This document shows positions 11,882 through 33,339 of a DNA stretch of 43,485 nucleotides, piece after piece. Every line of letters starts with the position of its first letter. Positions within the stretch are counted from its first letter, which is position 1. The stretch is from a virus: IMG/VR virus record IMGVR_UViG_3300036861_000168, positions 1 to 43,485 of that record. One strand, 5' to 3'. The notes below the pieces were generated by a model. It was not told where the DNA came from and did not search any database. It saw only the letters and a program-made list of their open reading frames with translations. Position numbers and translations under genes: made by a program.

Positions 11882-12460
11882 TTAGATCGGTATGCCGCGA
11901 CGGTTGAGATCGTGGCATTGCCGATAGAGCTCCTCTCGTTCCTGCTGGCCGACCAGATCACGCCGGCCGAGCGTGTCAAGACTCGCGAAATGACGCAGAA
12001 CTAAGTCGGCCTGAGCGCGCTTACGACGGAGATACGGGAGCAATTGAGGCAACACCCATCGCGTCTGGGTCGCATTGAAGCGAAGGATGTAGGCATCCTT
12101 GTGGTGCGCCTTTTGTTTGTTGGGATTGCTACGATCAACAGCTCCATTCCCTACCATCCTCTGAATCTCTTCCAAGAAAGGGCGGCTGGCTTGAGAGATG
12201 GTGAATGTCACCTTGGTCGTGAACCGGCTAACATTTCTCGCCCGTCTCTCCTTCCAGATACTTAGCGTGCCCTCGCCATCTACGAGGCCGGCGAGATACG
12301 CCGCATCCGCGACGCAGAGATGTCGCTTAACGACGTATCGCGCCTCATCTCGCTTACGCCGACATGACTCCGAACAGCACATGCGCTGTTTGCTGCCCTT
12401 GTATGGAGAGAACTCCGCCTCGCAAACGACGCAGCGGAGCGGAGACCAATATCGGCGCAT
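11882..12460 (-). CDS. LAGLIDADG homing endonuclease with zinc finger, 192 aa
   Basis: The product carries one LAGLIDADG motif (AYLAGLVDGEGTLSI, residues about 54-68), so it would act as a homodimer that cuts a specific DNA site and spreads its own gene. The N-terminus has a Cys cluster (CVVC at 10-13, then CCSESC) resembling a treble-clef zinc finger. The C-terminus (VLPQLLPYLRRKRAQADLV) is typical of small LAGLIDADG proteins. The start is set at the ATG nine bases after AAGGAG (12470-12475); an ATG six bases earlier is too close to that site. It stands free, immediately downstream of the capsid gene, and is not visibly within an intron. Confidence 0.88.
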   Translation of the reverse strand: MRRYWSPLRCVVCEAEFSPYKGSKQRMCCSESCRRKRDEARYVVKRHLCVADAAYLAGLVDGEGTLSIWKERRARNVSRFTTKVTFTISQASRPFLEEIQRMVGNGAVDRSNPNKQKAHHKDAYILRFNATQTRWVLPQLLPYLRRKRAQADLVLRHFASLDTLGRRDLVGQQEREELYRQCHDLNRRGIPI

Positions 12461-12480
12461 AGACATATTCTCCTTATATA

Positions 12481-13368
12481 TCAACCACCTGCAGTACCAA
12501 ACACGCCTCTAAAGTCACTCCACCCGCGGATGAACCGGAACCGAATCTTCACCTTCATGCTGCTCGACTCGAAGTCCCAGTCGTGCATCACGTTCGGCCG
12601 CTCCCGCCAGTACTTCCGCACGTTGTGCTCGCTGGGCTCGGCCAGGAGGACCCACGCATCCGCATCCGTCAGATACGGCCACGCCACGACCGTGAGCCCG
12701 TCCTGCTTGAAGGCGTTCTTGGCGCGGTCGCTGGTGTCGGAGCGGTCCACCGAGTTGATCAACTCATCCGCCTGCCACTTCAGCTCGTAGGGCACGAGCA
12801 GCACCTTGGGCCGGATGTGCAGCAGCTTGCCGGCGTCGTCCACGGTGTCGGCCCAGTCGTTAAGCGCGGTGCGAAGCGCGTTGGTCGAGAGATCGGCCGG
12901 CGTGGTGAGAGCGTTCTGCTCCGTGCCGCCGCTGATCAGCGGGTGAGCCGTCGAGAACAGGGCCACGCCGTCGGGGGAGCCCGTGGTGCTGGTGATGTTG
13001 TTGAAAAGCCCGGCGCAGTCCACCTCGACCGAGTAGCGGCCCGAGGAGCCGAGCGCGCGCGCGGCGTCCGACACCACCTCTTCCTGCTCGTCGTCCAGCG
13101 CCTCCTTGGACGCCCGGAAACCGAGCTCGTAGGTGTCGGGGGTGTATGTCTTGTCGAAGCCCTGCGCCAGGTCCTCGTAGGTGACGTTGGCCCCTTCCTG
13201 CTTGATCGGCACGATGCCGAAACTGCCGACGGTCGTGGTGGTCACGAAGGGCTTGTTGCCGATGTCGCGGACCTTCAGGAGCCGCTCGCTGATCTGATCC
13301 TCGATCGGGAACTCGTCGAAGAGCACGTCTTCGAGGAATGCGAGCCGGGAGAGATACAAATCTGGCAA
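12481..13368 (-). CDS. Major capsid protein (HK97 fold, Mu gpT type)
   Basis: This forms the icosahedral shell. It matches Mu gpT-type major head subunits in layout: an N-terminal segment (LPDLYLSRLAFLEDVLFDEF), an early domain with TYTPDTYELGFRASKEALDD, the characteristic GVALFSTAHPLISGGTEQN loop, then KVLLVPYELKWQADELI and a final GWSDFRGVFGTAGG. The listed start is the TTG at 13368. However, the reading frame stays open for nine more codons (LAIATLRST), and a perfect GGAGG site lies nine bases before an ATC at 13389. The true protein probably starts about seven residues earlier, from a non-standard codon. Genes for homing endonucleases abut both ends. There is no separate protease gene nearby. 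Confidence 0.9.
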   Translation of the reverse strand: MPDLYLSRLAFLEDVLFDEFPIEDQISERLLKVRDIGNKPFVTTTTVGSFGIVPIKQEGANVTYEDLAQGFDKTYTPDTYELGFRASKEALDDEQEEVVSDAARALGSSGRYSVEVDCAGLFNNITSTTGSPDGVALFSTAHPLISGGTEQNALTTPADLSTNALRTALNDWADTVDDAGKLLHIRPKVLLVPYELKWQADELINSVDRSDTSDRAKNAFKQDGLTVVAWPYLTDADAWVLLAEPSEHNVRKYWRERPNVMHDWDFESSSMKVKIRFRFIRGWSDFRGVFGTAGG

Positions 13369-13386: not shown

Positions 13387-13403
13387 GATGGCTAGTTACC
13401 TCC
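13387..13403 (-). promoter_or_regulatory. Capsid ribosome binding site with atypical ATC start
   Basis: GGAGG (13403-13399) lies within the last two codons and stop of the upstream endonuclease. Nine bases later, in the capsid reading frame, is ATC (13389-13387). The nearest standard start codon is the TTG at 13368, 30 bases from GGAGG and too far for normal initiation. No ATG, GTG or TTG occurs at the right distance. Confidence 0.6.
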
Positions 13404-13929
13404 ACTGCCGATTGTGAATCCCATCAATGGCCGCGATAGCGGCTAGGGCCCGCTTCCGCTTGACGATGAGATACGGCAGCACTTGAGTCAGGAGAGATTT
13501 CACAGACCCGCGCCTATGCAGCCGCAGTGTCCATGCCGGTTTCCAATGGGGCTTGCCCTTGGTGTAGACCCTTTGTCGAATGTAGCTACCAGGCAGCCGT
13601 TGAGTCAGCCACGCAAGCAATTCAAAATCGGTGTTGGAAATGACTACCGAGACCGCGTGCCTTGTCTGCTTGCTGACGGTCTTCTTGCCGAGTCCGATTT
13701 CGATATGCCCTTCGCCATCAATGATCCCGGCGATGTAAGCTGTCTCCTCGGGAGTTAGGTACTCGTAAGTCATCGCTGGCTGGTGGGCACTCCAGCCATA
13801 GCGATACGCATAGTGAGTGATGGCGTGTAGGCTCCTGCCGAGGCGAGCGGCAATCTCTCTCCTTGGTATAGCCTTCCAGTTCTCCCGAGCAAACTGGATG
13901 TCTTCCGCCGACCACTCCCGCCCCGGCAC
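13396..13929 (-). CDS. LAGLIDADG homing endonuclease with HTH domain, 177 aa
   Basis: Residues 1-46 form a Myb/SANT-like helix-turn-helix (EWSAEDIQFARENWKAIP, then REIAARLGRS), followed by one LAGLIDADG motif (AYIAGIIDGEGHIEI, residues about 64-78). It probably works as a homodimer. GTG start at 13929 is preceded by AGGAGA. Its last codons (TGG AGG TAA) contain the GGAGG that serves as ribosome binding site for the capsid gene, so endonuclease and capsid translation are joined. It differs in its N-terminal domain from the second endonuclease, which suggests two independent invasions. Confidence 0.88.
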   Translation of the reverse strand: MPGREWSAEDIQFARENWKAIPRREIAARLGRSLHAITHYAYRYGWSAHQPAMTYEYLTPEETAYIAGIIDGEGHIEIGLGKKTVSKQTRHAVSVVISNTDFELLAWLTQRLPGSYIRQRVYTKGKPHWKPAWTLRLHRRGSVKSLLTQVLPYLIVKRKRALAAIAAIDGIHNRQWR

Positions 13930-17339: not shown

Positions 17340-19730
17340 CTAAGCAAACGGTCCCACCCCCATGCCCTGCGCCATCGGCGCGCCGGTTCCATTCCCGCCC
17401 TGCGGCTGTGCTGGCCCCGGTCCGAGTTGCGGCTGCGCCCGGCCGGTCTGTGCGTTCATTCCTTGAACGCCGCCCGGTCCCATCGCGCCGGCCTTGCCGC
17501 CCTTGGCACCGCCCATCTGCTGAGCCATCTGCATGACGAACGCCATCTGCTGGGTCTCCGCGATATGAGCGAGGAGCAGCTCTCGGCCCTCGGCGGTGAG
17601 GAACGCGCTCTCCGGCTGATCGAGGAAGAAGTAATGTTCCATGATGTGACGCTGCATGTCCTCGGCTGGCGAGGGGTGCACGTCCTTGCCCGCGCCCGAG
17701 AGGAACATCGCGTGCTCCTGCACCGGCTCCTTCGGGGGCACGAACTGCGGGGCCTGGAGGATGCGCAGGGGATCCCGCTCGCCATACGCCTTGAGAAAAT
17801 CCTTCGCCAGCTCGAAGATGCCGTTGAGCCCCATCGTCTGCGACTGGAGAAAGACGGGGTTCATCATCGTGGTGAGCTTGATCTGCGCCGTCTCCCGCAT
17901 GGACTGCTTGTTGAGCGTCTCCGTGGTCGCGGAGAGCCGGAGATCGAACTTCCCTTGAATCTCCGTGCGGTCCTGGATGCGGATCACCTCGGGCCGCCCC
18001 GTGACGCGGAACTCCTTGCCTGGCGGGAGGTACTGCTGATCGAGCGCGAGAATCTGGATGTAGATGCGCCGCCAGAACTCTTGGAAGCGCGACATGAAGA
18101 CCTTGAACCGGAGGCCGGATTCCGAGAGCAGTGAGGCGACGCCGGTTGCGGTCCGCGTCGCCCCCACGCGGTTCGGCTGGCGGCCCAGCGCCATGTCGGT
18201 CACTCCGGTCAGCCGCTCGTTGTACTGCTGGAGCAGCGCTTCCTCCTGGAAGCCGAACGCCGTGTTGGTGCGGAACTGGGGGAACAGGATATCGGTCTGC
18301 GGGTTATCCACCGGCACGCCTTCCCCTGGCCGGAGCCGATGCTGCGTCGGCTTCAGCATGGAGGTGGAGCGGTAGAAGTAGAACGGCAGATTGCCGATGG
18401 TCCCGTAGTCCACCCGCTGGTTGTGCATGGTGGACATCTCGTCCTGCACCTCGCGGATCATCTCGGGGAGACTGAGCCCGAGCGTCCGGTTTGGCAGCGG
18501 CATGAAGACTTCCTTCTCGAATGGCCGCTTGCCGGACGCGTTCACATTGTCGAGGTAGTCCCACCCGAGCGTCAACTTGTGGGGCTCGGCGACCCAGGAG
18601 ACGATTTCCTCCGAGTAGCCGTCCTCGTCAATGTCCTTCGCGCGGTAGTCCTCCAGCACGCAATACATGTCCGCCCGCATGTCCGAGGACTCTGGGTCCA
18701 CGCCCTCTTGGCGGTCAAGCGTCTGCCGCGCCCCGTCGGCGTCCATCACGTCGTCCATGCCAGTGGGACCGCGGCGGATCACTTCCTCCACGATCTCCCG
18801 GTCGAACTGGCCCCGCCGTGCCCGCTGGCGCAATTCGTCCTCGCTCATCCAGAGCCGATGCTGAAGCCAGCGGAACTTCTGGGGATCGCGTCCCGCGCGA
18901 GCCGGCGCGATCACGTCCTCGGGATCGGGAAACTCGACGGATGCGCCCTCGAACTGCAACTCCTCCTTGTCGAGGAGCACCTGGATCTCGTCCTCGAAGA
19001 ACGCGAACTCGGCCGCCACGTCCGTGCGCCGGCCGCCGGGCATCCTGAGCTTGCCCTTCCATACGAAGTCCTCGCCCGGCTGGCGCTCCAAGTCCTCCGG
19101 CACCGCCTGACCAAAAAGCGTCTGGAAGATGATGTCGAGGCTCGTGGTCGGGGGGAACTTCCGGATGGCCTTGATCTTTCGGTAGCGCCGATCCCACCGA
19201 ATCTTCCCCCATACGACGCCAGCCACGAGGAAGAGATGCGCCGATTCGTCCGCCAGCGCGAAGATGTCGAGCTCGGTGTCCACTTGCCAGTTGAGGAACA
19301 GTTCCGTCAGCTCGGCCTTGTCGTCATCCTCGGGGCCGACCGGGATCACGAGCACCTTCGGCTCCTGCCCGACAATCGCCTCGATGAGCCGCGGCTTGAG
19401 CGTCTCCACGTCCGTCATGGTGACCGGGGGATGAAAGTTGGCCGCGCCCTCCCACGGGAAGTCCTTCGGCGTCGTCTCGTTCAGGTAGCGCCGATACCCC
19501 TGGTCGAGCTTGTCTTCCCACTCGAGGCGATCGGAGAGCGCGTCCAAGTAGTCGCGATGCACCTCACTCGCATGATCGGCCAGATCGAACTCCGGCACGT
19601 CGTGGAGCTTGTCCGTGAGCCGGAGTCGCGGCTGCTCCTCAGCGGGCGGGGCCTCCACGGCGATCACCGTGGGGAGGTCGTCCACCGATTCGACCGGCTG
19701 CGCGGCGTCGAGTTGGGTGTTTTCAGCCAT
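17340..19730 (-). CDS. Portal protein, P22-like, 796 aa
   Basis: This forms the dodecameric ring through which DNA enters and leaves the head. The start MAENTQLDAAQPVES overlaps the terminase stop (TGATG); an upstream codon would add 42 residues lying inside the terminase gene. Length and layout fit P22-like portals: an acidic N-terminus, a core with DYLDALSDRLEWEDKLDQGY and RLIEAIVGQEPKVLVIPVG, the crown/stem region with TGVTDMALGRQPNRVGATRT, and a C-terminal Gly/Gln-rich tail from about residue 735 (MGGAKGGKAGAMGPGG) that resembles a flexible barrel extension. The large size favours a podovirus-like head. Confidence 0.85.
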   Translation of the reverse strand: MAENTQLDAAQPVESVDDLPTVIAVEAPPAEEQPRLRLTDKLHDVPEFDLADHASEVHRDYLDALSDRLEWEDKLDQGYRRYLNETTPKDFPWEGAANFHPPVTMTDVETLKPRLIEAIVGQEPKVLVIPVGPEDDDKAELTELFLNWQVDTELDIFALADESAHLFLVAGVVWGKIRWDRRYRKIKAIRKFPPTTSLDIIFQTLFGQAVPEDLERQPGEDFVWKGKLRMPGGRRTDVAAEFAFFEDEIQVLLDKEELQFEGASVEFPDPEDVIAPARAGRDPQKFRWLQHRLWMSEDELRQRARRGQFDREIVEEVIRRGPTGMDDVMDADGARQTLDRQEGVDPESSDMRADMYCVLEDYRAKDIDEDGYSEEIVSWVAEPHKLTLGWDYLDNVNASGKRPFEKEVFMPLPNRTLGLSLPEMIREVQDEMSTMHNQRVDYGTIGNLPFYFYRSTSMLKPTQHRLRPGEGVPVDNPQTDILFPQFRTNTAFGFQEEALLQQYNERLTGVTDMALGRQPNRVGATRTATGVASLLSESGLRFKVFMSRFQEFWRRIYIQILALDQQYLPPGKEFRVTGRPEVIRIQDRTEIQGKFDLRLSATTETLNKQSMRETAQIKLTTMMNPVFLQSQTMGLNGIFELAKDFLKAYGERDPLRILQAPQFVPPKEPVQEHAMFLSGAGKDVHPSPAEDMQRHIMEHYFFLDQPESAFLTAEGRELLLAHIAETQQMAFVMQMAQQMGGAKGGKAGAMGPGGVQGMNAQTGRAQPQLGPGPAQPQGGNGTGAPMAQGMGVGPFA

Positions 19731-20656
19731 CAATACCCGCCCCGTCGCCCCGCCGTGTAGGCGTAGGTTCGCGCACGCGCGGCCTGCTCGCCATGGCCTG
19801 GCCCGTAATGCTCGGCGAGATTTGAGAAGTGATTTGTCACGAGATACCGCAAGCACGCCTGAGTGTGCGAAAAGTAGCCGTCATCATCCGGTTCATCGTG
19901 GTACGTGCCGTCCGTCTTCATCTTGTACGTGTAGCCGCCGAGCATGCCCGAGATGATAATGGGACAGCGACGGGTGACGAGCAGGGCGGGGGACTTGTCA
20001 TCGCGCTCGCGAAGAAGCTGGTGGATGATGGCGCGTCCGGTCTTACGAGGACGCGGCGAGTAGGCGGGATAAATCCCGTAGCGCGCGAGCACCTGAAGCT
20101 CGGTCGTCTCGCTCTGCTCTGACATGATCGACCGTACTTGCGCGCCAGCCGGATCACAATAGTCGGCGTAACCCCATGCCGACCAGTCGCCGAATGAGTC
20201 CGCGCAGTACTGGATGACCTTCTGCGCAAAGCGGTCGATATCGAGGTCTCTGCCCTGTAACTCTCCGTAGAGGATCAGCCGGTCCCGCGAATCCACCTGG
20301 GCGATCACGACGGCCGGGTGGTGATAGCCGAAGTCCCAGGATCGGAGGAGCCGACGGCGACGGCGTGGCATCAGATCGGCCGCCAGCCGCCCCATATTCT
20401 GCTCGTCCAGTACGTGGTCCTGCTCGGAGAACTCGGGGAAGCACCGCTTGCCGGCAGTGACATCAAACGAGCACTCCATCTCACGCTGGAAGTCATTCGG
20501 ATCGAGATAGCGGAGCCGCTGCTTCTCAAGCCAGGCTCGCGCCTCCTCTGCCAACTCGGGATCTGCGGAGTGCGGATCGTGATTCGGAAAGAGACTGTAA
20601 TGCGCCCGGATACTGACCACGCCCAGGGGATTCTTCGCCAGAGTCAGCCCCCTCAT
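19730..20656 (-). CDS. Terminase large subunit, nuclease domain, 308 aa
   Basis: This holds the RNase H-like nuclease of the DNA packaging motor, which cuts the concatemer. Visible acidic positions: SWDFGYHHPAVVIAQVD (Asp at about 108), ADYCDPAGAQ (Asp at 165 or 168), and a C-terminal EPDDDGYFSHTQACLRYL, consistent with a three-acid active site. The ATG lies in the ATGA overlap with the ATPase gene; the sequence before it in the same frame has no start codon. Normal terminases carry both domains in one chain, so this is half of a split protein. See the partner ATPase gene. Confidence 0.85.
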   Translation of the reverse strand: MRGLTLAKNPLGVVSIRAHYSLFPNHDPHSADPELAEEARAWLEKQRLRYLDPNDFQREMECSFDVTAGKRCFPEFSEQDHVLDEQNMGRLAADLMPRRRRRLLRSWDFGYHHPAVVIAQVDSRDRLILYGELQGRDLDIDRFAQKVIQYCADSFGDWSAWGYADYCDPAGAQVRSIMSEQSETTELQVLARYGIYPAYSPRPRKTGRAIIHQLLRERDDKSPALLVTRRCPIIISGMLGGYTYKMKTDGTYHDEPDDDGYFSHTQACLRYLVTNHFSNLAEHYGPGHGEQAARARTYAYTAGRRGGY

Positions 20657-21393
20657 TGCTCGGTCGTTCCCGAGAACATCTGCCAGAATGCGTTCTGCTT
20701 CCCATTCGGCGTGGAGACGCAGATCAGCTTCGTCTGCTTCTGGATCGTCGGGAGCACGGCGGTGACGGACAGCCGCGCCTGCTCCATGAACGCCATCTCA
20801 TCCATCACGACCACCGATGGCGTCTTTGACCGCACCTGATGGCCACCTTCGGGAATGGCGACAACCTTGGAGCCGTTCGGCCACGTGATTTCTCCGTGAC
20901 CGAAACGCGCTCGCCCGTTGATCCACTCCGCGCCATTCCACGAGCGATCCCGCATCCAGGTGGGGAGATTCTGCTCTATGAACTCCATGCGCGCGGTGTC
21001 GTGGCGCTTCTCTCCGTGGCTTACCATGTCGATCGCGTCTTGCTCGCGCTTCGACTGCCAGACGATGAGTCGATTCGGATGGAAGCGCCCAACATGGACA
21101 CAGAACGAGCAACACTCCCACGACATCATGATCTGACGCGACTTCGCAATGGCGTAGAGGTTCTCATTCGGATCAGCTAGCGCGGTCCAGATCGCCTCAA
21201 GCTGCGCGAGATCCGGAAACGCCTTCACGCTCTCCTCGGCACCGGCCGCCTCGTCCCGCGTCTTCACGTGATTGACGACCCAGTACCAGCCGTCCTGACG
21301 GCAGCGCTCCAGCTCGGCCAGGATGAGGCCCGAGACAAGCTTCTGCTGCTCGTCGGGGGCCAGCACCTCGAGGTCGGGGGCGGTGAGGCTCAC
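20653..21393 (-). CDS. Terminase large subunit, ATPase domain, 246 aa
   Basis: This is the packaging ATPase. The GTG start (MSLTAPDLEVLAPDEQQ) overlaps the previous TAG by one base. A Walker A-like loop is seen at YAIAKSRQIMMSW (about 80-92), the Walker B with catalytic Glu at SVVVMDEMAF (about 193-202), and the coupling motif at CVSTPNGKQNAFW (about 225-237). The protein stops at TGA 14 residues after that motif, where a complete terminase would run on into the nuclease. It therefore covers only the motor half and must act with the 308-aa nuclease gene. Confidence 0.87.
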   Translation of the reverse strand: MSLTAPDLEVLAPDEQQKLVSGLILAELERCRQDGWYWVVNHVKTRDEAAGAEESVKAFPDLAQLEAIWTALADPNENLYAIAKSRQIMMSWECCSFCVHVGRFHPNRLIVWQSKREQDAIDMVSHGEKRHDTARMEFIEQNLPTWMRDRSWNGAEWINGRARFGHGEITWPNGSKVVAIPEGGHQVRSKTPSVVVMDEMAFMEQARLSVTAVLPTIQKQTKLICVSTPNGKQNAFWQMFSGTTEQ

Positions 21394-21782
21394 TAGATGC
21401 GTTTCTCCGCTTGGGTGGTGACCTTCAGGAGGCACGAGCCGCCGGCATTGCCATTCGTCGGAGCCGGGCGAATGTAGTAGGTCGCCTCCAGCACTTGCTT
21501 GATATTGGCGCTCGTGATGGAGAGCGCGGTCGTCCCGTCCACCTCATGCAGCGTCGCGTAGACTGCCGCTGCCGTCGCGATCGCGTTGGACCCCTCGATG
21601 TGGATGGTACCGTGCGTGGTGCCTGCTGTCTGGACGTTCCGGTCGGTGAGAATCGCGGCTTGCTGAAGCGCGAACTGATTGCCGTCGGGGAAAGCGACAC
21701 ACGTATCCCCGGAGGCGAAGCCCGACCAGTTCACGAGGTAGCCGCCCACGATCGGCGTGGCGGTGTAGTTGATGGTGGCCAT
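21393..21782 (-). CDS. Beta-rich virion-associated protein, 129 aa
   Basis: Ser/Thr/Ala-rich, with short beta segments (TATPIVGGYLVNWSGFASGD) and low charge. It is followed directly by the terminase start and preceded by the 71-aa gene, in the stretch between fibre and packaging genes. Likely a virion or fibre-associated protein; family unknown. It has no terminase-small-subunit HTH pattern. Confidence 0.6.
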   Translation of the reverse strand: MATINYTATPIVGGYLVNWSGFASGDTCVAFPDGNQFALQQAAILTDRNVQTAGTTHGTIHIEGSNAIATAAAVYATLHEVDGTTALSITSANIKQVLEATYYIRPAPTNGNAGGSCLLKVTTQAEKRI

Positions 21783-22002: not shown

Positions 22003-23124
22003 TTATGGCCCCGCCAACATCTCGGCTTCGGTGTACGTCACGCCGTCATCCGTAATATTCTTCTTGAACACCACCGTGCCGGCATCGTTGTGGCCCTTCA
22101 TCACCGTCGCGCCGGCCGTCGAGTCGACGATCACCTGATTGCGCGTGAGCATCCACGTCATCATCGCGGCCTGATCAAGAGACCACGGGGTCGCGGGAGG
22201 AGCGGCCTGTCCGAGTTCCGTCGCGATCCAACTCACCGAGGCGCCGCTGCCGGCCGGGCGGAGGAGGAGCGCCGGCAGATTTCCGTTCAGCCCGCCATAG
22301 ACCAGCATGCCGGCCCCAATGCCGCTACCGACGTTGTGACCAAGCTCGACATATGATCCCGTGAGGCCGGCTTCGGCATGGAGCCCGGCGCTTCCGGCAC
22401 TATCCCCATAAAGACGGACGCCATGTTTTTGGGTGGAATTGGCTTCCACCGCGTAGTTGTTATCGGCGTAGGCGTAGATCGCGCGCACCGAGCCGCTCGC
22501 CCCCGCTTCAATGGCGGCCTTTCCGACACCCGCCGTGGCTTGCGCATTGATACCCGACCCGCCAGTCACTCCGCCAGAGACGCGCAGACCATCGCCCGTC
22601 GTGCCGCCCTGCCAGTGCATGGCCGCGCCCGAGCCATTGCCCGTTGCGAAGAGCGCCCGGCCGTTGGAGCCTGTGGATTGGAGGGAGACCGCATCTCCGG
22701 TTGAGTTGATGACGGTCAGCGACTTCAACGTCATCGTGGCGGAGGCGTTGCCCCAGTTCGGGGTCGCGTGGACGGCATTGACGATGGTGGCGACCGCGGC
22801 GGTGACGAGTTCCCCGATATGCACCGGATTCGTATAGAGGACTATTGGCGTCCCGCGCGCCCCGGAATTCGAGCACGTTGCCACCACCGCGATCGTCTGG
22901 CCATTCGTCTCTGTGCCCGTGAGATCGAGGTAGTACATGCCCATGGTCGTGCCGATCTCAACAGGATTGCTGGCGGTGTAGAGCGGCGACGCGGCATCGA
23001 TCGAGTAGATCGCATCCAGCCCGGTGCCGACCAGGATAGGGAGTCCCTGCATGTCGAGGAGCGGGAACGTGACCCGGTACGGCTGCGCCTTGATCGGAAG
23101 CGGGAACGCGTCAGCGGAGGCCAT
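22003..23124 (-). CDS. Tail fibre or receptor-binding-like protein, 373 aa
   Basis: Start MASADAFPLPIKAQPYRV overlaps the upstream stop (TGATG); an in-frame extension of 94 residues upstream is spurious, lying in the neighbouring gene. Residues 1-100 are an Ig-like beta domain (VEIGTTMGMYYLDLTGTETN), and residues about 150-300 are a Gly/Ala-rich repetitive region of short beta strands (VTGGSGINAQATAG, GDSAGSAGLHAEAGLTGS) like a beta-helix fibre. The C-terminus (KGHNDAGTVVFKKNITDDGV) resembles a common fibre end found in phages. It probably binds cell-surface glycans. The role is inferred from fold-like pattern. Confidence 0.7.
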   Translation of the reverse strand: MASADAFPLPIKAQPYRVTFPLLDMQGLPILVGTGLDAIYSIDAASPLYTASNPVEIGTTMGMYYLDLTGTETNGQTIAVVATCSNSGARGTPIVLYTNPVHIGELVTAAVATIVNAVHATPNWGNASATMTLKSLTVINSTGDAVSLQSTGSNGRALFATGNGSGAAMHWQGGTTGDGLRVSGGVTGGSGINAQATAGVGKAAIEAGASGSVRAIYAYADNNYAVEANSTQKHGVRLYGDSAGSAGLHAEAGLTGSYVELGHNVGSGIGAGMLVYGGLNGNLPALLLRPAGSGASVSWIATELGQAAPPATPWSLDQAAMMTWMLTRNQVIVDSTAGATVMKGHNDAGTVVFKKNITDDGVTYTEAEMLAGP

Positions 23125-23846
23125 CAGCGGGCCATGGCGAGTCGCCGGCCGGCATGCGGCACGCTGCCGTATCGGGCGAGACCGGGGTGAATGATCGCGG
23201 CATTCGGCGGATGCGAGGCCGTCGAGAGGCTCGTCCCCGTGGGCACGCGGTCCGTGATGATGTCGCGCACGTAATCCGACCCGTAGAGCGGCCAGAAGTG
23301 TGTCAGGCCGCGCGTGATGAAGCCGGGGCACCGGAGCCCGTCGTCCATCTCGCTGGCGGTGAGGAGCACGTTGAAGAACTGGTGAAACGCCAGAGGGCCA
23401 TCCCACGTCCGATCCGCCGCGTTTCGGTTACCGATTCCGTACCCCGAATTCGGGCTCACCGCCGTGCCCGACGGGGTGGTGCCCGTTGTGACGGTCACGC
23501 TCGCAAAGTTGATGCGCACGGTGGGATTGTTGGTGGTGGCGCTCCGATCGTAACTCAACGCAATGGCATTCCACTGGCCGTCGGTGGCCGCCCACGTCCA
23601 GACGCCCGTCGTGGTGTTGAACACGTACTGGAACTGAAGGGTGTTCGCCCCGACGCTGTGGAACAGACCGAACCCATTGGCACCGGACTGACCGCCGGCC
23701 AGCTCGTCGGCGATCAGGATGCGGCCCGCCGTCTCACCCACACTGTTGGCGCGCGCCCAGACCAATATCGTCATCTGGGCCACGTCGAATCCGGTCGCCG
23801 TCGTGTCCTCCAACTTCGAGGTCGTGCCATTGAAGAGGACGGCCAT
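23124..23846 (-). CDS. LamG/concanavalin-like lectin domain protein, 240 aa
   Basis: Pattern fits a LamG-type jellyroll: FNGTTSKLEDTTATGFDVAQM at the start, ILVWARANSVGETAGRI, WNAIALSYDRSATTNNPTVR and the final NRNAADRTWDGPLAFHQFFN. Such domains bind sugars and are common in phage fibres and appendages. It lies next to the fibre gene and the carboxypeptidase-like gene. Ligand unknown. Confidence 0.75.
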   Translation of the reverse strand: MAVLFNGTTSKLEDTTATGFDVAQMTILVWARANSVGETAGRILIADELAGGQSGANGFGLFHSVGANTLQFQYVFNTTTGVWTWAATDGQWNAIALSYDRSATTNNPTVRINFASVTVTTGTTPSGTAVSPNSGYGIGNRNAADRTWDGPLAFHQFFNVLLTASEMDDGLRCPGFITRGLTHFWPLYGSDYVRDIITDRVPTGTSLSTASHPPNAAIIHPGLARYGSVPHAGRRLAMAR

Positions 23847-23847
23847 A

Positions 23848-25113
23848 TCAGTTCGTCTTCAGCCACTCGTCCGTCATGCGGACGAAGTTCTCGCCTATCA
23901 GTCGCGCGGTTGTGGGTGTCGCCGCCTGCCCGTTCTCGAAGTCGGTCTGGGCTCCGGTCTCGAAAAGCGCGCAGTGGGGGATGCCCTCGGACTTGAGCAC
24001 GCGGTACGGGCCCGCGACCGTGCTGCCGAATGGGCCGGGGAAGCTGCCGGTCGGGAGCGCGTTTGGGTTCACGTTGGTCCCGCTGTAGTAGTTGCCGGGG
24101 TCAAACGTGGCGTTGGCGACCGGCAGCGTCGAGAACGCCTCGGGAGTCCCCTTCGCGACGACAACGAACATGCTGCGCGGGACCGGCGTGAAGCCGCCCG
24201 CGAAATCGACGGAGGTGTGCCACTCAGCGAGCACCTTTGGCACGCGGGCGAGGATGTCGGCGTGCAGGCACGACTGCTCCGGCCCCTCGGTCTGCGCATT
24301 CGGGCCGGTCACGTCGAAACGGGCGAACGCGATGCCCCCGGCCCCGGTCCGGCCCCAGCCGTTCACGTAGCCGTCCGGGTTGAGCCGCACCACGATGTCC
24401 CACACGCGGTCATCGAGGAGCGCCGGATGCGCCAGGAGGTAGTCGATCATTCCGGCCATCGTCCACGGGACGAGCCGCTCCTCCGTGTGGCCGGCGTCGA
24501 AGGCGTAGACCTTTTCTTTGCCGGAATCCGGGATCGCGGTGTTCGTGAGCGTGAAGCGGTAGATCGGCTCGCCGAGCACTGAGGTCGCGAGCGGATGACG
24601 CACGACATACTGCGTGAAGGCCATCCACCGCGCCATGTCCTCCTGATAGCGGAAGGTCGTGTACGGCTGGGCCTCGGCGACTCGCAGGAAGCCACCAGAG
24701 CCGGCGGGGATGGTGATCTCCGTTCGGTCCGAGAAGTACGTCTGCGTGGCCCGCGTCCAGATGGCCAGCGTCGGGTCGCGCGTGTACCAGCACGGCGCAA
24801 ACGTCGGGCCGGTCCGGTAGCCGAGCACGGCGCCCCAGGTCCGGTAGACCCGGAAGGTCCGCGCGCCCGAGCCACCGTGGAGCGTCTGAAAGTCGGGGAA
24901 CATGCTGAAGCGCTGATTGGGCACCGCACCCGTCGAGGGCGTCACCCACGGGGGTGCGGCGTCCGGCGTGCCCATCACGGGATCGGGCGCGCAGTAAATC
25001 GCCGTCACGCCTGGCGACACCTCGACCGCGTGATCGAGATTTCCGCCCTCGGGCGCACGGGTCCACAGGAGCTCACCGGGCGGGCCGGTGAACGGCGTGC
25101 GAACGCGCGGCAT
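23848..25113 (-). CDS. M14-like zinc carboxypeptidase, 421 aa
   Basis: The metallocarboxypeptidase fold is suggested by motifs in the right order: HxxE at DAGHTEERLV (His209, Glu212), the substrate-binding segment LNPDGYVNGWGR (about 244-255), AFARFD in place of the usual DLNR (Arg at about 265), a third zinc ligand His in LAEWHTS (about 299), and a catalytic Glu candidate in HCALFETGAQT (Glu385). An N-terminal beta domain, ending with QPYTTFRYQEDMARWM, recalls cytosolic carboxypeptidases. M14 enzymes remove C-terminal residues from peptides, including murein tails and polyglutamate. Its place among fibre genes implies a virion or envelope target. No signal peptide or ribosome binding site is visible. 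The assignment is by motif reading only. Confidence 0.65.
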   Translation of the reverse strand: MPRVRTPFTGPPGELLWTRAPEGGNLDHAVEVSPGVTAIYCAPDPVMGTPDAAPPWVTPSTGAVPNQRFSMFPDFQTLHGGSGARTFRVYRTWGAVLGYRTGPTFAPCWYTRDPTLAIWTRATQTYFSDRTEITIPAGSGGFLRVAEAQPYTTFRYQEDMARWMAFTQYVVRHPLATSVLGEPIYRFTLTNTAIPDSGKEKVYAFDAGHTEERLVPWTMAGMIDYLLAHPALLDDRVWDIVVRLNPDGYVNGWGRTGAGGIAFARFDVTGPNAQTEGPEQSCLHADILARVPKVLAEWHTSVDFAGGFTPVPRSMFVVVAKGTPEAFSTLPVANATFDPGNYYSGTNVNPNALPTGSFPGPFGSTVAGPYRVLKSEGIPHCALFETGAQTDFENGQAATPTTARLIGENFVRMTDEWLKTN

Positions 25114-25132: not shown

Positions 25133-25438
25133 CTAGACCTCCGTCCAGGAAAAGCTGGAGACCTGTCGCGGCGCTCCGGGAATGGCCGGCGCGATGTGGT
25201 CGAGATGCACGCTCAGGGCTGGACCGGGCGCGCTTTCGTTCCCGTCCATGTCCTTCGTGGTCGCCGTGAACAGATACGTGCCGTCGTCAGGAATGGAGAG
25301 CCCGGTGAAGAGCACGGGGCCAGGCCCGCCAGGCGGCGACACTTCCACCACGAAGGCTCCGTTGCGGTGGAGCCGATACTTGCTGACATCCGCGTCCGGT
25401 ACTTGGTCGATTTCGAGGGCGCCTCCGGTCCAGGGCAT
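25133..25438 (-). CDS. Fibronectin type III-like small protein, 101 aa
   Basis: The sequence has the FN3 pattern of seven short beta strands: LEIDQVPDADVSKYRLHRNG, FVVEVSPPGG, GTYLFTATTKDMDGNESAP with the closing SVHLDHIAPAIPGAP. FN3-like modules are common in phage tail and fibre proteins, where they bind carbohydrate or other proteins. It is a stand-alone domain here, next to the carboxypeptidase-like gene and in the fibre block. Confidence 0.75.
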   Translation of the reverse strand: MPWTGGALEIDQVPDADVSKYRLHRNGAFVVEVSPPGGPGPVLFTGLSIPDDGTYLFTATTKDMDGNESAPGPALSVHLDHIAPAIPGAPRQVSSFSWTEV

Positions 25439-25448
25439 TCGATGTCTC

Positions 25449-25946
25449 CTACAGCCGTGCGCGCACGGCTTCGAGTCCCGCGTTCACCTCGGCCAGCTTC
25501 TCTTCCTTCGCGGTGATCTCCCGCGACAGCTCGGCCATCCGGCCGGCGTGCGCGGCGGTGAGCTGGTCCTTCTTGTCGGCGTACTCCTGATCGAGTGCGT
25601 CGAGTCGGACCTTCTGGCGCTCCTGTGCGGCCAGGAGATCGGCCGTCATCGCCGCGAACTTGGCCTTCGTGTCGTTCTCGGCCCCCTGGAGGGCCATCTG
25701 CGTCGCCGTATAGGCGGCCTCGGCGGCGTCCTTCAGGGAGACGGCCTTTAGCCGCTCGTCCTCAAGGCGCGCCAGCTCCGTCTCATATCTCTTCGCGTCC
25801 ACCTCCGCGCCTGCCAGCCATGACTTGGCCTCGTCGGCGGTGGCGAGCACGTTGCCGAGTGCGTCGAAGGCCCGAAGGATGCGGTTGAAGCTCTGAAGCT
25901 CCACACGGGCGGTCTGCCAGTCGATCGGCGTGCCGTCTTGGGTCAT
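25449..25946 (-). CDS. Coiled-coil protein, 165 aa
   Basis: From residue about 35 on, almost the whole chain is charged and Ala-rich with heptad-like spacing (AERYETELARLEDERL type: DAKRYETELARLEDERLKAV, then LAAQERQKVRLDALDQEYAD), a long coiled coil. It overlaps the next gene start as ATGA. Coiled coils of this type appear in fibre chaperones, fibre shafts and structural spacers; here a fibre-associated role fits the neighbours. Function unproven. Confidence 0.65.
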   Translation of the reverse strand: MTQDGTPIDWQTARVELQSFNRILRAFDALGNVLATADEAKSWLAGAEVDAKRYETELARLEDERLKAVSLKDAAEAAYTATQMALQGAENDTKAKFAAMTADLLAAQERQKVRLDALDQEYADKKDQLTAAHAGRMAELSREITAKEEKLAEVNAGLEAVRARL

Positions 25947-26239: not shown

Positions 26240-26430
26240 TGGCCCAGCGCCTTTGAGTGCAGAATGGCGATTGGCGAAGACAGAGCGATATCGGCCTCCT
26301 GAGGATCCTGATTCCAGATAAACATCGCGCACGAACAATTCAGGCACGACCCCTCGAGCACGCCGCCGTCGAACATGTCGGCGTGCTGAATCAGATTGCA
26401 CCCGCATACACACGTCGGCGTTCTGCTCAT
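26212..26430 (-). CDS. Small Cys-rich zinc-binding protein, 72 aa
   Basis: Starts MSRTPTCVCGCNLIQHAD, with two Cys clusters (C7-C9-C11 and CLNCSC at about 29-34), which suggest a zinc ribbon. ATG overlaps the stop of the O-antigen-type gene (ATGA), so the two are coupled. The C-terminal half is not Cys-rich. Function unknown; a small redox or DNA-binding accessory is possible. Confidence 0.65.
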   Translation of the reverse strand: MSRTPTCVCGCNLIQHADMFDGGVLEGSCLNCSCAMFIWNQDPQEADIALSSPIAILHSKALGQCSPHSDEK

Positions 26431-27452
26431 CCCAGCCCCCGCGCCATCAGCGCCACTACACACACCGTCGGCAGCGCGGTCTGCGGCAAATACAGCGGAA
26501 ACTGGCCGATCGAGTTCACCAGCATCGCGGCCAGCGCGCCTGTCAGGGGGTCACCCAGCGCGAAGGCGCGGGACGCGGAGGCGAACCAGAGGAGCACCGC
26601 CACCACGCCCACCGCCCCGGACTCGAATGCGACGTGGATCAGGTCGTTGTGCGCCTGGCGGTAGTGCTGCTGGGTCCAGCGCCGGCCGGACCACCACGCG
26701 GCGGCTCGGGGGAACCCGCCGTGGCCGAACCCCGTGAGCCGCGTGCGCCAGTCGGCGTGCCAGAGGGTCGCGAGCGCCAGTCGCCACGTCTGCGCCCGGC
26801 CCGTCCACGAGTCAATCGGATTGCCGCGCCAGTAGGTCAGCCCCGGCACCGCGAGCAACGCGGCGGGGACCAGACCGGGCGTCCACTCGGGATGCGCGAT
26901 GACCAATCCCACGAGCGCGGCAAAGCATCCAAGGTAGGAGTTCGTGACCGCCAGCCCGAGCGCGAGGACCGGGAGCGCCCATACCGGCGCGAGCGGCATC
27001 GCGAACGCGCAGTACGCCGCCACCACGACGCGGTTGCCCATGGTGCCGCGCGCCCACTCGCGGGCCTGATGAAGGGTCAGGCGATTCTTCCGCATCGCGC
27101 GCCACAGCAAGTCATACGCGGCCCACACGGCTTGGCCCATCGCGCCCGCGACGATCGCCGCTTTCACGGCCGGCAGCACCGACTCGGGGCCGTACCGGAC
27201 GCCCGTGTAGACGAGCGCCGCCGCGCCGATGACGAGCACCCCGTCGATTGTCCGCGCGTTGCGCCAGCGGAAGACGGCCAGCGCGAGCAAGAGGCCAAGG
27301 CCCGGCTCCATCGCGATGGCGCACGCCGCCGCGCCCCACGCCACGATGAGGAGCATGCGGTTCCGGATCTCCGCCGGCCACGGGGAGGCGACATTCCATG
27401 CGCAGAAGGGCAGGAGCAGGAGACCGAGCACGAGGATCAGCGTGAGGACCAT
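26427..27452 (-). CDS. O-antigen ligase/polymerase-like membrane protein, 341 aa
   Basis: The start MVLTLILVLGLLLLPF is preferred over a codon 29 residues upstream that would extend into the neighbouring gene. About ten hydrophobic segments are visible, and the region DSWTGRAQTWRLALATLW followed by a periplasmic loop with AHNDLIHVAFESGAVG matches the Wzy/WaaL pattern (S-x-GR...HN-x-L). Such proteins join or extend O-antigen or other glycans at the membrane. In a phage it could alter the host's surface to block other phages, but donor and acceptor are unknown. It overlaps a small TM gene by 16 bases. Confidence 0.7.
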   Translation of the reverse strand: MVLTLILVLGLLLLPFCAWNVASPWPAEIRNRMLLIVAWGAAACAIAMEPGLGLLLALAVFRWRNARTIDGVLVIGAAALVYTGVRYGPESVLPAVKAAIVAGAMGQAVWAAYDLLWRAMRKNRLTLHQAREWARGTMGNRVVVAAYCAFAMPLAPVWALPVLALGLAVTNSYLGCFAALVGLVIAHPEWTPGLVPAALLAVPGLTYWRGNPIDSWTGRAQTWRLALATLWHADWRTRLTGFGHGGFPRAAAWWSGRRWTQQHYRQAHNDLIHVAFESGAVGVVAVLLWFASASRAFALGDPLTGALAAMLVNSIGQFPLYLPQTALPTVCVVALMARGLG

Positions 27453-27640
27453 CGCGCCACCACCGAAAGCGTCCAGATGAGGCCCGCCAGCCCCCCCATG
27501 ATCATCGTGGTCCACACCAGCGCGCCCGCGAGGAACCACCAGTCCTCCCGTGGATTCGGATCCAGATCATGTTCGTCCCACGCCTGGTGCTGGCGGGCGT
27601 TGTCGAGGGCGTGGAGGCGACCGGCTTGCTTGGTGGTCAC
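27437..27640 (-). CDS. Small membrane protein, 67 aa
   Basis: The GTG start (MTTKQAGRLHALDNARQH) overlaps the radical SAM stop as GTGA. One long hydrophobic segment (WFLAGALVWTTMIMGGLAGL) runs from about residue 35 to 62, then a basic end. It could be a holin, a partner of the O-antigen-like protein or a linker; nothing identifies it. It overlaps the next gene start by 16 bases. Confidence 0.65.
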   Translation of the reverse strand: MTTKQAGRLHALDNARQHQAWDEHDLDPNPREDWWFLAGALVWTTMIMGGLAGLIWTLSVVARWSSR

Positions 27641-28701
27641 GGCTCGGTCTCGAGAACGTACGAATTGGACACACAGCGGGCGCACTCTCGATGCTCCATG
27701 TAGCGGCCTTCGCGATGGAGATGGCGGAGCTCAATCATCCCGTTCTTCCACGCCTGGGCGATGGGTCCATCGCTTTCGGCGGCGGGCTGATGCGTCGAGC
27801 CCACGGTGATGTGATCACCCTGGAATGCGCAGCACGGAGAGATCGCTCCATCACTCCGCACGCGCATCCGCTGGAACGGTTGCGCGCACTTGAAGTCAAA
27901 CGGCGGGCTTCGATCGAGGCTCGCGAGCTCGCCCTTCTCCGGGCGGTCGGGCCACGGATTGACGAAACTCTGCATCGAAAAAAAGTCCGCAAACGGCCGC
28001 CACGCGCGGATGAAGTCCTCCTCCTCGTCCGCGTTGTCCTTCATGCGGATGAAGCACACGCCCAGAACCGGAAGGTCTGTGGAGGGACCGCCCGTGCGCG
28101 CATGATCCGCGAATCGCACGCGCTCCTCACGGAACATCTGGATATTCGCGAGGACGGTATTAAGATCTGCGCCGACGCGAATCTTTCGATACGTGCTGTC
28201 ATTCACTGCGTCGAGTGAAACGAAGAGGCGCGTAAGCCCCGCGTCAATAAGCCGGCGGGACATGTGGCGCGTGAGCAATACCCCGTTTGAATGGAGTAAG
28301 ATGTCCAGCACGCCGAGCTCGCGCGCACAGGCGACGAAGTCGGGGAGGTCTTTGCGAATCAGCGGCTCGTTGACGCCGTTCAGCCCGACGGCGCGCGTGC
28401 CCATGGCCACGGCTTCTTTCATCACCGACCGGAAATGCTCGAGGCTGAGCCACGTGTCCTTGCCGCCGGTGGCGTCCTCCGAGCGCGTGCACATCGGGCA
28501 GCGGAGGTTACAGGACGCGTTCAGCTCCCAGTCGATCTGAAGCGGATACGCCCGGTCCTGAGCGGGGATGCCTTCCAGCCACTCGCGGCGGTAGCGGCGG
28601 AAGTCCTCGCGCTGGTGCGCGGGCAGCGCCATTGCGATCCGCTCGTCGAGGTCGGAGGCGGAGAGGAGCCGACTGTGCGCGCTCCGCTCAATCGTCTGCA
28701 T
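27637..28701 (-). CDS. Radical SAM/SPASM enzyme, 354 aa
   Basis: The radical SAM cluster motif CNLRCPMC is at residues 64-71, with a GGE-like region near LNGVNEPLIR and a TIM-barrel pattern (ILLHSNGVLLTRHM; RLFVSLDAVNDSTY). The C-terminus contains Cys272, CC at 290-291 and CARC at 340-343, a SPASM-type set that would hold an extra iron-sulfur cluster. These enzymes make radicals for peptide or sugar modification. The first 55 residues are charged and could bind a substrate. Adjacent O-antigen-like and methyltransferase genes suggest surface modification, while a Trp/Cys-rich neighbour keeps peptide maturation open. Confidence 0.85.
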   Translation of the reverse strand: MQTIERSAHSRLLSASDLDERIAMALPAHQREDFRRYRREWLEGIPAQDRAYPLQIDWELNASCNLRCPMCTRSEDATGGKDTWLSLEHFRSVMKEAVAMGTRAVGLNGVNEPLIRKDLPDFVACARELGVLDILLHSNGVLLTRHMSRRLIDAGLTRLFVSLDAVNDSTYRKIRVGADLNTVLANIQMFREERVRFADHARTGGPSTDLPVLGVCFIRMKDNADEEEDFIRAWRPFADFFSMQSFVNPWPDRPEKGELASLDRSPPFDFKCAQPFQRMRVRSDGAISPCCAFQGDHITVGSTHQPAAESDGPIAQAWKNGMIELRHLHREGRYMEHRECARCVSNSYVLETEP

Positions 28702-32207: not shown

Positions 32208-32432
32208 TCACTCGGCGTCCAGCGCGGCAATGCGCTCGCGACTGAGCACTTCCCCTCGGGGCCAGTGATCCATCGGCGCATCAGCCGGGACGGGTGCGCC
32301 CGCCACTTCGCCGCCCGGATTGCAGCCCAGCACGTGGGCCATCGTGACCGCCCCGATCATGTCCTCGGCCGGCACGATGCACGCACCTAGAAACCCCGTC
32401 TCGTCGGCAAAGCTCAGATACCATTCGCTCAT
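32208..32432 (-). CDS. Small hypothetical protein, 74 aa
   Basis: The start MSEWYLSFADETGFLGACIV is supported by GAGGAA seven bases upstream, and it also overlaps the methyltransferase stop (ATGA). A mixed alpha/beta protein (EDMIGAVTMAHVLGCNPGGE). No family recognised. Confidence 0.65.
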   Translation of the reverse strand: MSEWYLSFADETGFLGACIVPAEDMIGAVTMAHVLGCNPGGEVAGAPVPADAPMDHWPRGEVLSRERIAALDAE

Positions 32433-33073
32433 GATGTCTTCCTCCCCACCACCCCAAATCCAAGCGTCCACCCATGAAACCGCCCGGCATCCAGTGGGCG
32501 GCGCTTCGCATCCCAGCGGCTCGTCCAGCGCGTCAGGCGGCTCAGGACAGCCGCCCGGCGGTGCGGGTAGGTCTGGTCATAGACAATCTGGAGCAGGCAC
32601 GTCAGCGGGCCACCCAGGGCCTCCAGGCGGTCGATCTGCCACCCCGCCGCAGTCGCCAGCTCCCGGAGCCCCCACGCCGTCACCCGCCAGCGGTCGTAGT
32701 ACTTGGGATTGAGCCGCGGGGATTCCCCGTGGGGCCGCACGAACGGGAGCGTCACCACCAGCCGGCCGCTTGGCCTGGCCACCCGCGCGCACTCCCGGAG
32801 CCCCACCTCGAGATCGGGCAGGAAGTACAGCACGTCAGTGGCCTTCACGATGTCGAACGTCTCCGTGGGCCAGGGGATTGTCTCCGCGCTGCCGCGAAGC
32901 ACAAAGCGCCCAGGGCTCGGCTCTATGTCGAGGCCGTACCAGTCGCCAGCACCGGGATCCCATCGCCCGCGCTCATGAACGCACCCCACGTCCAGTCCGA
33001 GCTGCCCGGACGCGGTGAGGGGCCCCAGCGAGAGCAGGAAGGCGTCGGCGAGTTGCCGATACGGGCTCCTCAC
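32429..33073 (-). CDS. SAM-dependent methyltransferase, class I, 214 aa
   Basis: The GTG start (MRSPYRQLADAFLLSLGPL) forms GTGA with the previous stop; a longer upstream frame is spurious. Motif I is LGLDVGC (about 25-31), the SAM ribose-binding acidic end of strand 2 is WYGLDIEPSP, and further motifs are TFDIVKATDVLYFLPD and ARPSGRLVVTLPF, typical of the Methyltransf_11 class. A substrate such as a glycan, protein or small molecule cannot be read from the sequence. The C-terminus holds a Trp/Arg-rich extension (LSRLTRWTSRWDAKRRPL). It could act on host surface or phage DNA, but is unlike typical DNA methyltransferases. Confidence 0.8.
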   Translation of the reverse strand: MRSPYRQLADAFLLSLGPLTASGQLGLDVGCVHERGRWDPGAGDWYGLDIEPSPGRFVLRGSAETIPWPTETFDIVKATDVLYFLPDLEVGLRECARVARPSGRLVVTLPFVRPHGESPRLNPKYYDRWRVTAWGLRELATAAGWQIDRLEALGGPLTCLLQIVYDQTYPHRRAAVLSRLTRWTSRWDAKRRPLDAGRFHGWTLGFGVVGRKTS

Positions 33074-33339
33074 TTCGCGCCTTTCAGGATCTCGTACACG
33101 TGCCCCCGGCTGATCCCCAACTCGCGGGCCGCTTCGGTGACGTTGCCGGCGTTGTTCACGATGGCCTGCTGCACGGCCAGCACGCGGAACGCTTTCACCA
33201 GATCCTTGAGCGTCACGCCCGTGATCCCGCCCACATGTCCTGTCCACCCGCACGTGACGCTCCGCTGCCCGGCCTGCACAGGAGCCAAAGGCGGCAAGGC
33301 CAAGAGCCCGGCCAAGACCAAGGCGGCGAAGCGGAACAT
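33070..33339 (-). CDS. Fis-type HTH protein with N-terminal signal-like segment, 89 aa
   Basis: The C-terminal 45 residues (VQQAIVNNAGNVTEAAREL then GISRGHVYEILKGAK) are a Fis-type HTH. The N-terminal 25 residues (MFRFAALVLAGLLALPPLAP) look like a secretion signal with an Ala-x-Ala-like end, an odd combination. No ribosome binding site precedes the ATG, so the true start could be an internal GTG (about residues 34 or 42), giving a plain DNA-binding protein. Overlaps the methyltransferase start as GTGA. Confidence 0.6.
   Translation of the reverse strand: MFRFAALVLAGLLALPPLAPVQAGQRSVTCGWTGHVGGITGVTLKDLVKAFRVLAVQQAIVNNAGNVTEAARELGISRGHVYEILKGAK

Follow-up and report, generated by a model that had tools for sequence, protein, structure and literature searches.

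The window analysed here, 43,485 bases long, is an IMG/VR virus record from an uncultivated bacterial virus. The head genes resemble those of SU10 (portal PF23899, adaptor PF24175, and capsid protein PF25209). An open reading frame with an ATG start occupies positions 23848-25113 of the minus strand and encodes a protein of 421 amino acids. The GC content at codon positions 1, 2, and 3 is 0.63, 0.54, and 0.89, respectively, which matches the coding expectation for the window. Near 25.1 kb, the frame signal passes from the upstream open reading frame to that of this gene. A frameshifted fusion with the upstream FN3-like open reading frame was considered and rejected, because codon-position GC changes frame at the gene boundary. 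From the open reading frame, the coding GC, PF00246, a profile of bacterial cytosolic carboxypeptidases (CCPs), and Foldseek, we annotate the gene as that of an M14-type (CCP-like) metallopeptidase homologue.

The gene is encoded on the same strand as its two immediate neighbours, the FN3-like and LamG genes, and is separated from them by 1-20 nt. Upstream, the gene for the FN3-like protein (101 aa, 25133-25438, minus strand) ends about 20 nt before the peptidase-like ATG. Downstream, the gene for a LamG/concanavalin-like lectin-domain protein (240 aa, 23124-23846, minus strand) begins 1 nt past the end of the peptidase-like gene, and it is followed by a fibre-like open reading frame (22003-23406, minus strand) that overlaps the LamG gene and whose true start probably lies inside the open reading frame. 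The sequence-only reading had placed the peptidase among LamG-, FN3-, and fibre-like genes. The LamG assignment is confirmed by profile (PF13385, E 9.9e-9; phrog_31148, E 1.3e-22). The FN3-like protein (no Pfam match) and the fibre-like protein (no database match) are named by inspection only, and neither has a convincing database match.

Further upstream are genes for a coiled-coil protein (165 aa, 25449-25946, minus strand, from the open reading frame list and domain scan) and for a polytopic membrane protein resembling O-antigen ligases/polymerases of the Wzy_C/WaaL type (26427-27539, minus strand). The latter has five hydrophobic segments and, in a pairwise comparison, aligns weakly with the O-antigen ligase of phage YPHTV-1 (E 0.028, over a GR..W / G.G / HN / E.G..G stretch); Wzy_C did not match it in Pfam. 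The same fibre-side block includes a radical SAM/SPASM protein (27637-28701, minus strand; PF04055, E 8.5e-19, with SPASM above its cut-off), and a Methyltransferase_11 protein (32429-33253, minus strand; PF08241, E 7.8e-10) is encoded upstream of it on the same strand.

The proposal that the 421-amino acid protein is an M14-type carboxypeptidase homologue was borne out by Pfam, by phmmer searches of the PDB, and by a CCP profile. PF00246 matches residues 172-253 only, at 22.3 bits (E 1.1e-4), which marginally passes the curated cut-off of 21.6 bits; at E 1 in Pfam the only other match is a chance one to FAP42. Four of the five phmmer matches in the PDB are bacterial CCPs (3l2n, 4b6z, 3k2k, and 4a37, E 1e-4 to 6e-3), and these are the sole significant PDB sequence matches. 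Vibrio CCPs were matched by tblastn against plasmids (27% over residues 119-265, E 7e-4). Among 398 genomes of one phylum, the protein matched 17 places at E <=1e-5, and all 17 are in CCP-family proteins (compared with a Vibrio CCP, E <=3e-112). A profile built from 24 CCPs matches residues 118-265 at 38.5 bits, compared with 22.3 bits for the general M14 model (hmmsearch, E 3.3e-10 for a database size fixed at 10,000; hhalign was also run). We delimit this stretch (24319-24762, minus strand), which includes the highest AF2 confidence (within residues 150-250), as the region of secure homology to bacterial CCPs. On the basis of the Pfam, PDB, plasmid, genome, and CCP-profile matches, the protein is, as judged from its sequence, securely an M14 homologue in at least its first half, and a closer relationship to bacterial CCPs than to other M14 branches is supported.

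Structure prediction, which the sequence-only reading had proposed as a check, gave a model resembling M14 enzymes when CCP sequences guided it. The AF2 model of the single sequence has a pLDDT of 31 and was discarded. When 18 bacterial CCP rows were supplied, the pTM was 0.61, and pLDDT reached 70-94 over most of residues 150-250. Confidence is good mainly in this stretch and in parts of two helices, and is low over 248 of the 421 residues. In Foldseek searches of the PDB with this model, which was built on the CCP alignment and is not independent of it, the bacterial CCPs 4b6z, 3k2k, 3l2n, and 4a37 came first (E 5e-14 to 5e-12), followed by CCP5 and then by carboxypeptidase A/B.

The reference for the active site is the bacterial BcCCP, in which the zinc ligands are His171, Glu174, and His268, the base is Glu344, the NPDG motif spans residues 216-219, and the substrate residues are Arg226, Asn235, and Arg236; residues like Arg127 and like the Asn144-Arg145 pair are conserved across M14 (PMC3940198). 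All of the motifs reported from the sequence are present in the order given: HTEE (residues 209-212), LNPDG (244-248), GWGR (252-255), EWHTS (297-301), and LFETGA (383-388). One detail needed correction, as LNPDG and GWGR are separated by three residues (YVN) and not by two. The full motif order and spacing did not arise in any of 20,000 shuffled versions of the protein.

HTEE (24478-24489, minus strand) aligns with HPGE of the CCPs, and H209 and E212 would be the first two zinc ligands (HxxE), corresponding to BcCCP His171 and Glu174. The NPDG motif (residues 245-248; 24370-24381, minus strand) aligns with the conserved CCP NPDG. R255 (24349-24351, minus strand), the counterpart of BcCCP Arg226 and CPA Arg127, is in an invariant alignment column and follows the NPDG Asn by 10 residues, the same distance as in BcCCP. 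The residues binding the C-terminal carboxylate of the substrate, an Asn-Arg pair (Asn235-Arg236 in BcCCP), read A264-R265 here (24319-24324, minus strand), by position as well as by alignment, in agreement with what had been noticed earlier; the Arg145-like residue is present, and the Asn is absent. Judged by sequence, the alignment of H209, E212, N245-G248, R255, A264, and R265 to CCPs is without doubt, and the replacement of the Asn by Ala264 is real.

The C-terminal half is a different matter. H299 (24217-24219, minus strand) falls on the invariant zinc-His column of the CCPs, and E385 (23959-23961, minus strand) lies at most two columns from the CCP catalytic Glu, in a part of the model with low confidence. 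Successive spacings are 10, 10, 34, and 86 residues here and 10, 10, 32, and 76 in BcCCP, the last two being R265 to H299 and H299 to E385. The H299 match was equalled in 28 of 200 shuffles, MAFFT placed both the His and the Glu equally well in 8 of 200, and for residues 266-421 alone the profile alignment had z 1.7, a score that 8 of 150 shuffles reached. Thus, among the M14 active-site motifs that had been claimed, HxxE, NPDG, R255, and R265 stand, and H299 and E385 are weakly supported candidates for the third zinc ligand and the catalytic base, respectively. Because the Asn of the pair is replaced by Ala264, we file the protein as an M14 homologue with an altered substrate site rather than as a proven M14 carboxypeptidase, noting that the Asn-Arg pair is not a Pfam family criterion.

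A CCP-like N-terminal beta domain had also been suggested. CCPs share three N-terminal motifs: I, F(D/E)xGx(L/I); II, W(F/Y)(Y/N)(F/Y); and III, P(F/Y)(S/T). Motif III is present as PYT at residues 150-152, inside the profile-aligned region and 59 residues before HxxE (58 in BcCCP). Motif I is present only as PEGGNL, with the Phe missing, and motif II was not found in the protein. PF18027, the CCP N-terminal domain, did not match it in Pfam (a Vibrio CCP scores 132.9 bits). Residues 1-118 carry no profile signal (z 0.6), and similarity starts at residue 118. From the N-terminal motifs, the z of 0.6, and the PF18027 result, a CCP N-terminal domain is weakly supported and not established, and the protein is best described, from its sequence, as an M14 homologue with a CCP-like core; we do not file it as a CCP.

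The protein thus resembles the bacterial CCPs of MEROPS M14D (BcCCP 4b6z, PaCCP 4a37, 3l2n, and 3k2k) in its core (residues 118-265), HxxE, NPDG, Arg127- and Arg145-like residues, spacing, and motif III, and they are its best structural match. It differs from them in having HTEE where they have HPGE, Ala instead of Asn in the Asn-Arg pair, no motif II, a motif I without Phe, no match to PF18027, and a C-terminal half that is unrecognisable by sequence.

We searched for relatives of the protein in viruses and found no close one among the annotated phages, viral contigs, or genomes searched. It belongs to no PHROG family at E 0.1, and a CCP query against annotated phages gave no match. Viral contigs were scanned with the 421-amino acid protein, a motif-masked pattern, and a DNA pattern for NPDGxxxGWxR, and no relative emerged by tblastn. 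A tblastn match at E=2 to Caulobacter phage 'lysis proteins' was discarded as chance, the matched protein being an ADP-ribosyltransferase polyvalent protein. Scanning viral contigs with a CCP alignment turned up two from IMG/VR, L111 and L112, that carry Vibrio-type CCP genes close to their ends. We rejected them as phage CCPs, as the proteins are near-intact Vibrio-type CCPs (78%) near contig ends, and the genes are most likely host DNA flanking prophages.

Kin phages of the window virus (L115-L121) were recognised via the portal protein (43-48% identity) and share the order of terminase and portal with the window. M14 was absent by profile from the loci of these phages and from 13 full records. 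Those kin phages that cover the region upstream of the terminase have neither M14 nor the genes of the fibre-side block, and in L116 the corresponding stretch holds mostly small open reading frames. Because the kin phages lack M14 and the other genes of the block, the stretch from 22 to 29 kb looks like variable, lineage-specific cargo.

M14 proteins have been described in phages before. A zinc carboxypeptidase domain in Clostridium phage phiCP24R was new to viruses when described in 2012 (review, PMC9234517), and carboxypeptidases are rarely produced by phages, according to a 2018 review (PMC6116005). The sequence-only reading had regarded a protease among adhesion genes as unusual. This is not borne out, as Moonbeam, Page, StB20, and YPHTV-1 all have annotated M14 genes directly beside tail spike, fibre, or tail genes, and PHROGs includes a 'zinc carboxypeptidase' family, phrog_4722, which the Moonbeam protein matches at E 7.6e-220. 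By tblastn, the Moonbeam protein was found in 35 phage records, mostly of Staphylococcus and Bacillus phages. In the Bacillus phages Moonbeam and Page, the M14 gene directly follows the tail spike. In Staphylococcus phage StB20, the M14 gene is flanked by those of tail proteins, and a poly-gamma-glutamate hydrolase is encoded two genes away, an arrangement that suggests a joint attack on a peptide-type surface layer. Halomonas phage YPHTV-1 has M14 between a tail protein and an O-antigen ligase, followed by an O-acetyltransferase, and in Stenotrophomonas phage BUCT702 the M14 gene directly precedes holin and amidase genes.

The window gene shares with the phrog_4722 group (Moonbeam, with relatives in Page, Palmer, and StB20) an M14 domain encoded among tail spike, fibre, and tail genes. 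However, that group is another M14 branch, which also matches DUF2817 and AstE/AspA, and BLAST matches between the 421-amino acid protein and those of Moonbeam, Page, and StB20 are at chance level, in addition to the lack of a PHROG match. The Gram-negative phages BUCT702 and YPHTV-1 likewise have an M14 domain in a tail/lysis module, but there it forms the C-terminal part of a protein of 728-759 amino acids; their best match to the window protein reaches 28% over 134 aa, with E 4e-5 when five sequences were searched. In all of the phage M14 proteins examined, including these two groups, the Asn-Arg pair is intact and PF00246 scores 64-88 bits. A likeness to YPHTV-1 is the O-antigen ligase adjoining M14 there, compared with the O-antigen-ligase-like open reading frame a few genes away in the window, and these are two cases only. 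Together, the comparisons suggest that phage tail-module M14s were drawn from more than one M14 branch. Such proteins are already known, and the window gene is of another, very divergent branch, with one altered substrate-binding residue.

The best explanation, tentative when taken as a whole, is that the protein is a divergent zinc metallopeptidase of the M14 (carboxypeptidase A) fold, and from its gene context only, its likeliest role would be that of a tail- or surface-associated peptidase acting on peptides of the host envelope during entry. H299 and E385 would complete the zinc site. The protein would be produced late with the neighbouring FN3-like, LamG, and fibre-like proteins, and, going by gene order only, it may be associated with the tail or surface. 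There it may cleave cell-wall stem peptides, a surface protein, or a polypeptide capsule, and cleavage may help attachment or entry. Because the lost Asn suggests altered recognition of the terminal carboxylate of the substrate, the protein may act on a non-standard substrate (D- or gamma-linked) or cut at sites that are not strictly C-terminal. A documented parallel is PghP (PF05908), a phage-encoded zinc-dependent enzyme related to carboxypeptidase A that strips a polymer from the host surface (PMC4497714), although the 421-amino acid protein has no match to PF05908, the poly-gamma-glutamate hydrolase family.

The Ala-Arg pair can also be read as a sign that catalysis has been lost, in which case the M14 fold would serve as a binding module (an adhesin or structural domain). 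The position of the gene among binding-domain genes fits this, as does a C-terminal half in which the third zinc ligand and the base are unrecognisable by profile. Against it, HxxE, R255, and R265 have been kept despite great divergence, and the His and Glu are at near-CCP spacing; we consider a dead module unlikely. Somewhat less probable is a role in lysis, in which the protein, as an endolysin or an accessory lysin, would cleave the stem peptides of peptidoglycan when infection ends. The BUCT702 gene order gives it a precedent, and no canonical endolysin domain was found among the open reading frames scanned with Pfam. M14 enzymes are mostly exopeptidases, however, and exopeptidases alone would not open the cell wall; moreover, no signal or cell-wall-binding domain was found in the protein, and its gene has LamG, FN3-like, and fibre-like neighbours with no adjacent holin-like small membrane gene.

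The closest relatives of the protein are cytosolic CCPs without export signals, and the S1' pocket of BcCCP suits acidic residues (PMC3940198), which raises the possibility of an intracellular host-takeover enzyme that acts on a host protein, trimming acidic residues that are C-terminal or gamma-linked. This is the most doubtful of the readings, as BcCCP itself has little deglutamylase activity (PMC3940198), the CCP N-terminal motifs are unconserved here, and the gene is in the fibre-side block and not in an early region.

A bolder reading is quite improbable as it stands: the phage would have recruited a CCP-type M14 into its host-attachment block, where both the N-terminal signature of CCPs and the Asn that binds the carboxylate were lost, and would use it with the O-antigen-ligase-like protein to remodel the host surface both peptidically and chemically. 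The pairing of M14 with an O-antigen ligase occurs also in the unrelated YPHTV-1, and the CCP branch was not found in any phage searched here. Far more work has been done on polysaccharide depolymerases than on peptidases encoded beside phage fibres. If the protein is active, a phage would carry a CCP-type M14, and this would point to a barrier of peptide or protein on the host. As no close relatives of the gene were found, its value is as a lead.

Several features elsewhere in the window were also recorded. The protein encoded at 8705-10321 matches phrog_5107 ('amidase') and was considered as a lysin, but was rejected since its matches extend to virion structural families and it is similar to the 'phage stabilization protein' of MW202601. 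The large terminase appears as two open reading frames that overlap by 4 nt (19730-20656 and 20653-21435, both minus strand), and its ATPase-like part belongs to phrog_5989. Kin phages L115, L116, L119, L120, L121, L123, and L127 match the terminase parts separately, about 20-980 nt apart, so that this lineage may typically have a split terminase, perhaps with insertions of introns or homing endonucleases. The major capsid gene (12481-13368) is flanked by LAGLIDADG-type homing endonuclease open reading frames (11882-12484 and 13396-13929, both minus strand), of which the second is a weak match (E 0.016).
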